Shown here piece by piece: positions 18,475 to 22,939 of a DNA stretch of 35,016 nucleotides. Each line of letters starts with the position of its first letter. The stretch's first letter is position 1. A model generated the notes under the pieces. It was given only the letters and a program-made list of their open reading frames with translations. It was not told where the DNA came from and ran no database searches. Source of the stretch: an uncultured Bacteroidota bacterium (GTDB lineage: Bacteria > Bacteroidota > Bacteroidia > NS11-12g > UBA9320); the NCBI GenBank assembly GCA_913043145.1, contig CAJWLP010000015.1:1-35016 (forward strand), in the 5' to 3' direction. The position numbers and the translations under genes are program-made.

Positions 18475-18571
18475 ACCCTTGTTAATTTACATTGTAGTCG
18501 TTTTTTTACTAGTATTTCCAAACAAAACACCTACTTGTGTTGTATTATCTTTAGCATATTTAGCTACAAAG

Positions 18572-19447
18572 ATGATTAACACGTTGAGTATTAAGGATTT
18601 AGAGAATATTAGTGGCATCAAAGCACACACTATTCGTACCTGGGAAAAAAGATATTCTATTTTTGATCCTAAGAGGACTCCAACTAATATTAGATATTAT
18701 GATCATGATGACTTGAAAAAACTATTAAACCTTGTTTCTGTTCTCGACCACGGCATGAAGATAAGTAAAGCTAGTGCATTATCTGCTGAGGATTTAAATA
18801 ACAAAATTGAAGAGTTACAAAAACAAAATATTGACACAGCTAAAGCATCACTCATAAATAATTTAATTATAGCAACATTAAAATGTGACAATAAGCTTTT
18901 TGAATATGTATACCAGAAAAGTATTGATGAGTTCGGCACAGAAGAAACCATCGAAACTGTAATAAGTCCACTTTTGATAAAAATTGGACTAATGTGGACT
19001 ATTAACAAATTGAATCCATCGCACGAACACTTTACAAGCCAACTTGTAAGACAAAAATTGTTTTCGGCAATAAATAGTTTGCCGTTTGTTCAATCTGACA
19101 ATAGGTTTGTACTTTTCTTGCCTGAAACAGAGTTTCACGAAATTGGGTTACTTTACTCCTACTATATCCTACGTAAAGAGAATTGTGAATGCATCTATCT
19201 AGGAGCAAATGTTCCAATTGTTGATGTAGAAGAGTGCAGTATAAATACGAATGCAAAAAATATTATTTGTGCTTTTACAATATTTCGATCAAAAAAGAGA
19301 ATTGACGCATATTTAGATAATATGATCAAAATGTTCAAAGACCATAAAATTCTAGTTCACGGCTTACCTGACTCATTCAAAACAACCTACCAACATTCAA
19401 ATATATATTTCATTTCTACTATCGATGATTTGAAAAATCATTGTTAA
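18572..19447 (+). CDS. MerR-family, B12-binding light-responsive repressor (CarH/LitR-like)
   Basis: Proteins of this type bind adenosylcobalamin, repress carotenoid genes in the dark and let go of DNA when light breaks the Co-C bond. The 291 residues comprise a MerR winged helix (about 4-70: LSIKDLENISGIKAHTIRTW, then EKRYSIFDP), a four-helix B12-binding-2 domain (about 90-168) and a Rossmann B12 domain (about 176-290). The adenosyl-capping motif W-x9-E-H is exact (W142, E152, H153), and the lower cobalt ligand is H189 in E187-F-H-E-I-G192. The residue after W142 is Thr, where Thermus CarH has the His that coordinates cobalt after photolysis. I start at ATG 18572; a TTG frame from 18479 would add 31 hydrophobic residues that do not fit MerR proteins. 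crtI follows after 26 bases. Confidence 0.93.
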   Translation: MINTLSIKDLENISGIKAHTIRTWEKRYSIFDPKRTPTNIRYYDHDDLKKLLNLVSVLDHGMKISKASALSAEDLNNKIEELQKQNIDTAKASLINNLIIATLKCDNKLFEYVYQKSIDEFGTEETIETVISPLLIKIGLMWTINKLNPSHEHFTSQLVRQKLFSAINSLPFVQSDNRFVLFLPETEFHEIGLLYSYYILRKENCECIYLGANVPIVDVEECSINTNAKNIICAFTIFRSKKRIDAYLDNMIKMFKDHKILVHGLPDSFKTTYQHSNIYFISTIDDLKNHC

Positions 19448-19473: not shown

Positions 19474-20946
19474 ATGCGAAGTCAGTTGAAAATTGCAATT
19501 ATAGGTTCAGGGTTTTCAGCTTTATCAAATGCTTGCTACCTAGCCAAAGAAGGCTACAACGTTGAGGTTTTTGAAAAAAATAGTTCACTTGGGGGAAGAG
19601 CAAGAATAAAACAAATAAATGGATTCAAATTTGACATGGGTCCAAGTTGGTATTGGATGCCAGATGTATTTGATAACTTTTTTAATGACTTCGGTGCTTC
19701 AGTCAAAGACTTTTATGAACTAAAACGATTAGACCCAAGCTATCGAGTATTTTGGAAAGACCAACCCGATGATATTCCAGCAAAAATTGAAGATCTAACA
19801 AATTACTTTGAAAGTTACGAAAAAGGATCGGGAGAAAGATTGAGAAAATTTTTGGATGAAGCTAAAATAAAATACGAAGTTGGAATGGGTGATTTTGTAA
19901 CCAAGCCCTCATTATCTTACAAAGAATTTATAAGCATAAATATTGCTAAAAAGGCAATGAACCTAGACTTATTTAAATCCATAAGTAAACACATAAGACA
20001 ACACTTCAAGCATCCAAAATTGATCGAACTTTTAGAGTTTCCGGTGCTTTTTCTTGGAGCAAAACCTAAAAACACCCCTGCTTTGTACAGTCTAATGAAT
20101 TATGCTGACATGGCCCTAGGTACGTGGTACCCAATTGGCGGAATGAACAAAATAGTTCAGGCAATGGTTTCAGTCGCAGAGGATTTGGGTGTCAAATTTC
20201 ATACAAATGCCAATGTTACCGAAATCCTTACATCAAACAATCGGTGCACTGGTCTAATGGTTAATCAAAAAGTACAGTCGGCAGATATCGTAGTTAGTGG
20301 TGCTGATTACCACCACACAGAACAAAAGTTGCTCCCAAAACCTTTTAGAATGTACTCCAAATCCTACTGGGAAAAACGTACTATGGCACCAAGTAGTTTA
20401 TTATATTATGTGGGATTAAATAAAAAATTAGATGGCATAAAACATCACAATTTATTTTTTGATGAAGATTTCAGTTCGCATGCAGAAGAAATTTATGACA
20501 CCCACAAATGGCCAAAAAAACCATTATTTTACATATGTTGTCCAAGTAAAACTGACAAAACTGTAGCCCCAAAGGGTAAAGAAAATATTTTTTTTCTAGT
20601 TCCTGTTTCAACGGAATTAAAGGACAATGAATCTATCAAGGATTTATATTTCGATCAAATATGTGACCGTTTAAAGAAATTTACTGGTACAGATATCAGA
20701 CCAAATATTGAAATTAAAGAAAGTTTTGCCCACACTGATTTTGTTAGTGAATACAATTCTTTCAAAGGAAATGCATACGGATTGGCTAACACATTAACAC
20801 AAACAGCCTTCTTAAAACCAAAGTGTAAAAACAATAAACTCAAAAATCTTTATTATATTGGTCAACTAACAGTTCCTGGACCAGGTGTACCCCCTGCAAT
20901 TGTATCCGGTAAAATTGTAGCTAACCTAATTTCTTTAAACCATTAA
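19474..20946 (+). CDS. crtI: Phytoene desaturase (CrtI type)
   Basis: An FAD-dependent, membrane-associated enzyme that desaturates phytoene to lycopene. The 490 residues begin MRSQLKIAIIGSGFSALSNA, with the FAD-binding Rossmann motif at about 7-35. VFEKNSSLGGRAR follows, then GFKFDMGPSWYWMP. The C-terminal signature GQLTVPGPGVPPAIVSGK, typical of bacterial CrtI, is near the end. The ATG at 19474 is preferred to an in-frame TTG at 19441 that overlaps the MerR gene. crtB follows after three bases. Confidence 0.96.
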   Translation: MRSQLKIAIIGSGFSALSNACYLAKEGYNVEVFEKNSSLGGRARIKQINGFKFDMGPSWYWMPDVFDNFFNDFGASVKDFYELKRLDPSYRVFWKDQPDDIPAKIEDLTNYFESYEKGSGERLRKFLDEAKIKYEVGMGDFVTKPSLSYKEFISINIAKKAMNLDLFKSISKHIRQHFKHPKLIELLEFPVLFLGAKPKNTPALYSLMNYADMALGTWYPIGGMNKIVQAMVSVAEDLGVKFHTNANVTEILTSNNRCTGLMVNQKVQSADIVVSGADYHHTEQKLLPKPFRMYSKSYWEKRTMAPSSLLYYVGLNKKLDGIKHHNLFFDEDFSSHAEEIYDTHKWPKKPLFYICCPSKTDKTVAPKGKENIFFLVPVSTELKDNESIKDLYFDQICDRLKKFTGTDIRPNIEIKESFAHTDFVSEYNSFKGNAYGLANTLTQTAFLKPKCKNNKLKNLYYIGQLTVPGPGVPPAIVSGKIVANLISLNH

Positions 20947-20949
20947 ATT

Positions 20950-21792
20950 ATGAAAGAATTATTTGATAAAATCTCTCTAAATGCTAGTAAGCATGTGACT
21001 AATGAATACAGTACTTCATTCTCTTTAGGTATAAAAATGTTGCATCAATCCATTCGCGAACCTATTTATGCTATTTACGGATTTGTTAGACTAGCTGATG
21101 AAATTGTAGATTCATTTCATGAGTTTAACAAAAAAGAACTTTTAGATGACTTTAAGAAACAGACCTTTCAAGCTATTAATGTAAAAATAAGCCTAAACCC
21201 GATACTTAATAGTTTTCAGCACGCTGTTAACTATTACCAAATTGACAAGTGGCTGATTGATGCATTCTTTGATAGCATGGAAATGGACTTAGAAGATCAA
21301 CAGTATAATCAGGAAACATTTGACAAGTATATTCTTGGTAGTGCTCAAGTAGTGGGATTAATGTGTCTAAAGATATTTTGCAAAGGTGATACTGACGAAT
21401 TTGAAAGTTTAAAGCCTGGAGCTATGAGCCTTGGTTCGGCATTTCAAAAAGTAAATTTTCTAAGAGACTTAAAAGCTGATAAAGAGAATCTCGGAAGAAT
21501 TTATTTTCCAGGAATGAATAATCATGAATGGACTCCTGAGCTTAAAGAAAAAATTCAAGCCGATATTAAGCAGGACTTCGTCCATGCACTGGAGGCTATT
21601 AATCGACTCCCGTCAAACTCAAAATATGGTGTATACACAGCCTATCGATATTATTTCAAACTATTCAAGAAATTAGAAAATGCCAGTTTTGAAGAACTTC
21701 TAACTAATCGATTAAGGGTACCGAATTATACTAAGATTAGGTTATTGTTTACGTCTAAAGTTCGATTGTCACTTGGGTCATATTTCTTATGA
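20950..21792 (+). CDS. crtB: Phytoene synthase
   Basis: Condenses two GGPP into phytoene, the first committed carotenoid step. The 280 residues show both aspartate-rich motifs for magnesium and diphosphate: D50-E-I-V-D54 (RLADEIVDSF) and D173-L-K-A-D177 (NFLRDLKADKENLGRIYFP). STSFSLG (21-27) and YGFVRLAD (43-50) are conserved family blocks. Its stop overlaps the crtZ start by four bases (ATGA), so translation is coupled. Confidence 0.96.
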   Translation: MKELFDKISLNASKHVTNEYSTSFSLGIKMLHQSIREPIYAIYGFVRLADEIVDSFHEFNKKELLDDFKKQTFQAINVKISLNPILNSFQHAVNYYQIDKWLIDAFFDSMEMDLEDQQYNQETFDKYILGSAQVVGLMCLKIFCKGDTDEFESLKPGAMSLGSAFQKVNFLRDLKADKENLGRIYFPGMNNHEWTPELKEKIQADIKQDFVHALEAINRLPSNSKYGVYTAYRYYFKLFKKLENASFEELLTNRLRVPNYTKIRLLFTSKVRLSLGSYFL

Positions 21793-22244
21793 ATTATCTA
21801 ATCTATTTTCTTATTTCAATCGGAACATTTGCCTTAATGGAGTTTGTAGCCTGGTTTACTCATAAGTATATCATGCATGGATTTCTTTGGGCTCTTCACA
21901 AAGACCATCATCAGGTTAATCCAGGTTTTTTTGAAAAAAATGACGCCTTTTTCCTAATTTTCGCGATACCCAGTGCAGCATGCTTCATTGTTGGAAGTAG
22001 TCTGGAAAGCTACTTTTATTTATTTTTTGTTGGTGTAGGGATAGCCCTTTATGGTATCGCATATTTTTTGGTTCATGATATTTTTATTCATCAGCGATTT
22101 CGCCTATTTAAACGTACAAACCATCGATATCTCAAGGCTATAAGAAAAGCACATAAGATACACCACAAACATTTAGAGAAAGAATTTGGAGAGTGCTTTG
22201 GAATGCTCATTGTTCCATTCAAATTTCTCAAAAATGCCAAGTAA
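21789..22244 (+). CDS. crtZ: Beta-carotene 3-hydroxylase
   Basis: A 151-residue di-iron membrane hydroxylase of the fatty acid hydroxylase superfamily that turns beta-carotene into zeaxanthin. The histidine clusters are H25-x4-H30, H37-x2-H40-H41, H96-x4-H101 and H122-x2-H125-H126, in the usual CrtZ order, with about four membrane segments between them. It overlaps crtB by four bases and shares one base with the start of the cyclase gene (TAATG). Confidence 0.95.
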   Translation: MNYLIYFLISIGTFALMEFVAWFTHKYIMHGFLWALHKDHHQVNPGFFEKNDAFFLIFAIPSAACFIVGSSLESYFYLFFVGVGIALYGIAYFLVHDIFIHQRFRLFKRTNHRYLKAIRKAHKIHHKHLEKEFGECFGMLIVPFKFLKNAK

Positions 22245-22939
22245 TGGGTAATTTATATTTATGGATTAACATCTTAGCTGTTTTCTTTCCATTACTCCTA
22301 AGTTTTAATAAAGTTGGCCACTTTTATAGACGATGGAAAATACTGTTCCAATCGATAGCCATTATGTGGCTTTTTGTAGTTTCGTGGGATATTTGGTTTG
22401 CATCAATTGGTGTATGGGGTTTCAATTCAAAGTATATAATTGGTACTGATTTTTTACATTTACCTATAGAGGAATGGCTTTTCTTTCTGTGTATTCCCTA
22501 CTCATTTATGTTTTTGTATGACCAGCTTGTTATTCTAAATACTCCAAATTACTTTAAGAAAATCGAGCGTTACTTGGATTTCACTTTCATTGGTATTGCA
22601 TTGTGTTTTTTAGTGATTGGAATTCCTAAACTATATACCACAATTGTATCAACTCTCGTAATACTTTTTACTTCGTTAATTTATAAGATAAACCCCAAAA
22701 ACAAGGGTGTGTTTTATATGAGTTACCTTGTTGTCTTAGTCCCATTTATCATAGTAAATGGAGTATTGACAGGTGGTGTAACAGAAGAACCCATTGTCTG
22801 GTATAATAATGCTGAAAATCTAGCAATTCGATGTTTTACTATACCTATAGAAGACTTTTTATACTATTTTTTAATGTTTGAAATATGCTATTTAGCATAT
22901 GAACAAATAAAAAAGACTACCCAAAAGGATAGTCCTTAA
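22244..22939 (+). CDS. Lycopene beta-cyclase, fused CrtYc-CrtYd type
   Basis: A 231-residue membrane protein with about seven helices and two lycopene cyclase half-domains. The first has SWDIWFASIGVWGF followed by the acidic LPIEEWLFF motif (about 75-83). The second has NAENLAIRCFTIPIEDFLYY near the C-terminus. In Actinobacteria and some archaea these halves are separate CrtYc and CrtYd or fused. They are unrelated to FAD-dependent CrtY. The enzyme closes the ends of lycopene to give beta-carotene. I start at the ATG sharing a base with the crtZ stop. A longer frame from 22193 would add 17 residues inside crtZ and is not hydrophobic. No ketolase gene follows. Confidence 0.92.
   Translation: MGNLYLWINILAVFFPLLLSFNKVGHFYRRWKILFQSIAIMWLFVVSWDIWFASIGVWGFNSKYIIGTDFLHLPIEEWLFFLCIPYSFMFLYDQLVILNTPNYFKKIERYLDFTFIGIALCFLVIGIPKLYTTIVSTLVILFTSLIYKINPKNKGVFYMSYLVVLVPFIIVNGVLTGGVTEEPIVWYNNAENLAIRCFTIPIEDFLYYFLMFEICYLAYEQIKKTTQKDSP
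22909..22934 (-). terminator. Intrinsic terminator of rpoD, inside the 3' end of the cyclase gene
   Basis: On the minus strand an 8-bp stem with one wobble pair (22927-22934 with 22915-22922) and a 4-base loop is followed by six T (A run 22909-22914). It lies 22 bases past the rpoD stop and overlaps the last codons of the convergent cyclase gene. On the plus strand the downstream sequence is only weakly T-rich, so it is poor in that direction. Confidence 0.7.

Follow-up and report, generated by a model that had tools for sequence, protein, structure and literature searches.

In the textbook mechanism of Thermus thermophilus CarH (PDB 5C8D, 5C8E, 5C8F and 3WHP), the light state is a bis-His state. 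H132 is the upper cobalt ligand of that state, and H177 is the lower axial ligand. The conflicting reports on H132A make the need for the upper histidine disputed in Thermus itself: one described disassembly in the light, and a later one found mostly tetramer with a 352 nm species (PMC10442372). H132 directly follows the adenosine-stacking W131, and residues at this position (W+1) are known to vary, being Arg in CtMerR, Gln in SasPcob, and Tyr in AbDPcob (PMC11796333). CtMerR of Chloracidobacterium thermophilum (PDB 8JBS and 8JBT) is a MerR-B12 photoreceptor in which the Trp, the Glu-His pair, and the lower His are intact. It binds adenosylcobalamin (AdoCbl), photolyses it to a 356 nm hydroxo/aquo-cobalamin, and as a tetramer falls apart into monomers in the light; in its anaerobic light structure, the motif Glu turns to a water-mediated cobalt contact (PMC11796333). 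With Arg and not His at W+1, CtMerR provides the nearest experimentally examined case of a light state that lacks bis-His ligation (PMC11796333).

Two further groups are related. The myxobacterial CarH and CarA proteins are MerR-B12 regulators of carotenoid genes with tandem repeat operators. A Wx9EH motif separates the AdoCbl-dependent CarH from CarA, a Gly-to-Pro change occurs at one dimer-dimer site, and the W+1 His occurs in "many," not all, of the CarH proteins (PMC9304148). The class II LitR proteins of Pseudomonas (PplR and PmlR) belong to the same LitR/CarH family and lie near photolyase genes; they keep only the four-helix half and are thought not to bind B12 (PMC9758184).

The regulator and its operon

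We analyzed a stretch of 35,016 nucleotides (the window) from an uncultured marine Bacteroidota bacterium. It is contig 15 of a draft genome of 1.7 Mb in 86 contigs that is 80% complete. The features discussed here are as follows.

18519..18546, + strand: putative operator/promoter, CAAACAA-N14-TTGTATT, a degenerate copy of TAAACAA-N13-TTGTTTA
18572..19447, + strand: CarH/LitR-like regulator gene, with a MerR winged helix-turn-helix (aa 6 to 70), a four-helix B12-binding_2 domain (aa 95 to 163), and a divergent Rossmann B12 domain
18995..19000, + strand: W142 (18995-18997) and T143 (18998-19000), equivalent to Thermus W131-H132; stacking Trp retained, bis-His ligand replaced by Thr
19022..19030, + strand: H151 (19022-19024), E152 (19025-19027), and H153 (19028-19030), equivalent to Thermus E140-E141-H142; the E and final H nearly invariant, H151 not
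19136..19138, + strand: H189, predicted lower axial cobalt ligand, equivalent to Thermus H177, within ExHxxG
19474..20946, + strand: crtI-type phytoene desaturase, 26 bp after the regulator
20950..21792, + strand: crtB-like phytoene synthase; phytoene/squalene synthase models match, all under their curated cut-offs
21789..22244, + strand: crtZ-like beta-carotene hydroxylase, with no NCBIfam match and named from its length, histidine motifs, and gene order
22235..22939, + strand: crtY-type lycopene cyclase with two CarR domains

The regulator gene translates into 291 amino acids with no internal stop. In Pfam, MerR_1 (51.6 bits) and B12-binding_2 (27 bits) both scored over their cut-offs, and the Rossmann B12-binding model scored under its own (13.9 of 32.1 bits). 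The best solved relatives found by HMMER were the Thermus CarH chains 3whp and 5c8d (E 6e-19). There was no gap in the alignment from the Trp to the lower His; therefore, T143 corresponds to H132, H151 to E140, H153 to H142, and H189 to H177. The numbering of Thermus W131 was verified against the full pTT27 gene. The adenosine-capping motif Wx9EH is complete (W142-x9-E152-H153), and the lower His lies in an intact ExHxxG (E187-F-H189-E-I-G192). An AlphaFold model built from 60 homologues had a mean pLDDT of 91. Its top fold matches were CarH structures in the dark, light-exposed, and H132A forms (5c8e, E 1e-15), and the cobalamin-domain entries of the latter two matched with a TMt of 0.84 to 0.89. 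Unlike class II LitR, the regulator has the lower His and the Rossmann fold.

The regulator thus shares with Thermus CarH the domain order, the fold, the W/E/H cap, the lower His, and a carotenoid-gene neighborhood, in which it is the first gene of the operon. This agrees with the original prediction of a CarH/LitR-like protein, directly on a carotenoid operon, that has its capping residues and lower His intact and Thr in place of the bis-His ligand. We describe it as a divergent protein of the CarH/LitR branch that probably works like CarH, and not as a proven CarH, because it departs from the full B12 motif, the GxxH element, the NCBI equivalog score, and the operator type given below.

The genome also encodes an adenosyltransferase (197 bits), a methylmalonyl-CoA mutase, and a second strong B12-binding_2 protein; therefore, AdoCbl is probably made and used. 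It encodes a microbial rhodopsin as well (L226; Bac_rhodopsin, 147 bits, G000:C41:8415-9086), so light probably matters to the organism. The desaturase at 19474-20946 passes the NCBIfam model NF058655 for a bifunctional phytoene desaturase/3,4-desaturase (CrtID) with 736.9 bits against a cut-off of 640, and the operon product may therefore not be plain zeaxanthin.

The residue after the capping tryptophan

We collected homologues from relatives, a phylum-wide profile search, a genome-collection scan, plasmids, and the phyla of an Actinomycete, a Chloroflexales, and a Bdellovibrio metagenome-assembled genome. The protein was present in 103 of 117 relatives, and a profile search of 395 genomes from throughout the phylum had matches in 122, the weaker of them being cobalamin-domain matches only. 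We use "Bacteroidia" for a pool of the window's same-class genomes and of contig records titled as Bacteroidota groups.

The W+1 residue was Thr in 15 and Ser in 2 of the 17 sampled genus homologues, so T143 is not due to chance or a sequencing error. Across the class, the four B12 residues (equivalent to W142, E152, H153, and H189) were retained in 184 of 186 distinct homologues. None of these 184 had His at W+1, where the residue drifts among L, Q, T, V, M, I, S, G, C, and A. T143 thus belongs to a Thr/Ser that runs through the whole genus, within a class-wide absence of His. Because the four B12 residues are kept while W+1 drifts, selection appears to act on AdoCbl capping and not on a W+1 ligand.

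Among distinct homologues with the same four residues from elsewhere, His at W+1 was absent from all 19 sequences of the Actinomycete phylum, all 4 from Pseudomonadota plasmids, and all 4 of the Bdellovibrio phylum. It occurred in 1 of 14 sequences from other classes of the window's own phylum and in 20 of the 29 Chloroflexota sequences. This sampling is uneven; outside Bacteroidota the numbers are small, and the searches behind them started from the Thermus sequence, a choice that favors His. The outgroup of the collection scan had His in 4 of 15 sequences, three of them from Chloroflexales/Chloroflexaceae records. On a tree of 148 rows (quick method, SH-aLRT support only), the His label required four changes, and 87 Bacteroidia rows without His made up one side of a branch with 99% support. 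Apart from Thermus, the W+1 His is therefore common only in Chloroflexota within the present sample. The title of a 2016 paper (reference 27 of PMC9758184) calls a histidine of the LitR light-sensing domain "semi-conserved," which we read as meaning the W+1 position.

These counts bear on two points. First, the W+1 residue of the regulator differs from that of Thermus CarH, and this could be a local oddity of one gene, such as drift in a nonfunctional copy. We give this reading almost no weight, as the frame and motifs are intact, all 17 genus members have Thr or Ser, and the class is non-His throughout; local drift and a pseudogene were accordingly rejected. Second, the regulator had been proposed as an unusual natural variant of a well-studied photoreceptor. 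This did not hold: absence of the W+1 His is normal for the class Bacteroidia, mostly also the case outside Chloroflexota and Thermus, ordinary for the one gene in the window, and a kind of variation already published for other proteins. The remaining interest lies in the divergence of the clade as a whole. Although the standard account of CarH rests on a bis-His light state, a large branch found in common producers of carotenoids has no His at W+1. If this branch is light-responsive, then bis-His ligation would be a lineage-specific add-on, and loss of the adenosyl group would be the general trigger.

Cobalamin tail, interface, and upstream DNA

The Bacteroidia proteins depart from Thermus CarH at further sites. 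In the full B12 motif, ExHx2G-x41-SxV/T-x22-27-GG, the ExHxxG part is present in the regulator, and the tail reads A234-F-T236 and H263-G264, with A in place of the Ser and HG in place of GG. The Ser was kept in 25 of 184 Bacteroidia versus 23 of 29 in the Chloroflexota sample. In place of GG, most Bacteroidia have SG or TG, and GG is present in 27 of the 29 Chloroflexota proteins. Therefore, the prediction that AdoCbl binding is likely is supported at the cap and the lower His and weakened at the incomplete tail-binding motif.

The R176-D201 pair of the Thermus dimer interface is absent in the Bacteroidia branch, and it is F188/N213 in the regulator. Thermus G160 and G192 are replaced by P171 and N204, and the Gly-to-Pro change at one dimer-dimer site is common to the regulator and myxobacterial CarH/CarA. 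Position 204, at the dimer-dimer interface, is a near-invariant Gly that has become Asn in the window's six-species subclade; it is Gly in the other 11 sampled genus members.

The regulator scored 98.9 of the 400 bits of the NCBIfam CarH equivalog NF052513, whose cut-off is narrow. It has three of the four elements of the SignatureFinder light signature (GxxW, EH, GxxH, and GxxxP; PMC11796333), and the GxxH position reads T186-x-x-H189. All four elements were present in 112 of 186 Bacteroidia homologues.

In Thermus, three 11-bp TnnACA repeats lie between carH and crtB, and the Bacteroidia clade lacks such an array. In the 184 Bacteroidia regions upstream of the regulator, TnnACA repeats with 11-bp spacing never formed a run of three, and runs of two occurred in 5 of them (4.4 expected). 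The Thermus control was positive, as were 3 of 14 same-phylum relatives of other classes; the search was confined to DNA preceding the regulator gene, and the run is missing from many outgroup genes too.

We found instead an inverted repeat, TAAACAA-N13-TTGTTTA, upstream of the regulator in 106 of 183 Bacteroidia loci, where its frequency elsewhere in these loci would predict 30; the repeat was derived and counted on the same sequences, and intergenic DNA is A+T-richer than those background windows, so this enrichment is a lead and not a test. The 13-bp spacer was preferred upstream (54 of 106, versus 140 of 726 in the background). The window's copy has three mismatches and a 14-bp spacer and lies 53 bp before the start codon. 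The repeat may be an operator or a promoter.

Judged by these comparisons, the Bacteroidia regulators form a divergent CarH branch in which the B12-tail motif, the R176-D201 pair, and the operator all depart from Thermus. We suggest, tentatively and as a rather doubtful whole, that the branch could be a separate design of B12 photoreceptor. It would combine a light state in which the protein supplies no upper ligand, a rebuilt lower-nucleotide pocket (perhaps accommodating other cobamides or a different mode of binding), an altered dimer interface, and binding as a dimer to TAAACAA-N13-TTGTTTA rather than as a tetramer to tandem 11-bp repeats. The Bacteroidia proteins offer natural cases, with other interfaces and operators, for testing the adenosyl-loss trigger.

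Neighboring genes and the proposed light state

At least one crt gene lies near the regulator in 85 of 219 loci. The regulator is near a DNA photolyase and a TIGR01777-type gene in 46 of 73 relatives outside the genus, and Thermus carH adjoins phr and crtB. These neighbors place the regulator in a light-damage setting, and together with the photolyase and the TIGR01777-type SDR gene it probably forms a light-damage regulon. Loci L037, L053, L056, and L073 show the regulator near these two genes, in divergent orientation in those examined. In four loci of the same genus (L016 to L019), the regulator still lies between formimidoylglutamase-like and rpoD-type sigma genes; the crt operon is absent there, and crtI (55% identical) is on another contig. 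Light-induced carotenoid synthesis is known in one Bacteroidota species, and its regulator has only been guessed at (PMC7064467).

We favor, with moderate confidence, a model in which the regulator, loaded with AdoCbl in the dark, represses its own crt operon and is released by light with no side chain as upper ligand. In the dark, AdoCbl would be bound with H189 under the cobalt and W142, E152, and H153 around the adenosyl group. The loaded protein would form a dimer or larger oligomer and repress its own promoter and crtI-crtB-crtZ-crtY. Green light would then break the Co-C bond, and the adenosyl group would leave. T143 would supply no upper ligand, and water or hydroxide, held by E152 and H153 as in CtMerR, would fill the site. 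The light state is thus most likely His189-Co(III)-water/hydroxide. Loss of the adenosine contact to W142 would suffice to weaken the oligomer and free the DNA.

The regulator has no His at the H132 position, and the known site therefore cannot furnish a side chain for a bis-His adduct. It had been suggested that H151 or H153 might swing onto the cobalt after photolysis and restore bis-His ligation. H151 belongs to the motif loop, H153 hardly varies, and both could face the emptied adenosine pocket. However, residue 151 is His in 6 and Gln in 10 of 17 genus members, and His in 85 and Gln in 88 of 187 class members, and H151 was rejected as a substitute on this conservation. H153 is equivalent to Thermus H142, which is present there yet is not a ligand. 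CtMerR has the same E-H pair and no W+1 His, and its anaerobic light structure contains aquo/hydroxocobalamin (PMC11796333). We regard such a swing as quite improbable. CtMerR itself differs from the regulator in phylum, in having Arg rather than Thr, and in sequence (about 18% identity over the aligned fold).

A second alternative is that light sensing has been lost and that the regulator is a B12-status sensor with AdoCbl as co-repressor, or a CarA-like B12-independent regulator, kept on the crt operon for some other purpose. The incomplete tail motif and weak Rossmann match, the altered interface residues and operator type of the branch, and retention of the regulator in the four congeners whose crtI lies elsewhere would all fit such a loss. 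However, the capping Trp, which is lost in B12-independent CarA (PMC9304148), is nearly invariant in Bacteroidia, as is the EH pair, and the relatives' neighbors are photolyase and crt genes. Moreover, given the intrinsic photolability of AdoCbl, a sensor of this cofactor would tend to be light-responsive in any case. We consider this loss unlikely, though much less so than a swinging histidine.

The near-invariant adenosine cap and the photolyase and crt neighbors therefore favor the light-responsive AdoCbl repressor. Counting against it are the A234/H263 tail, the F188/N213 pair, N204, the missing GxxH, and the low equivalog score. Moreover, we found no experiments in the literature on any Bacteroidota member of the CarH/LitR branch, and the one study in which Thermus H132A stayed mostly tetrameric in the light indicates that loss of the His can impair the switch.

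Two extra copies (L223 and L224, in G278 and G369) are paralogues in which the Trp, the His, or the lower His is disrupted. From these residues, they are likely B12-independent copies comparable to CarA.
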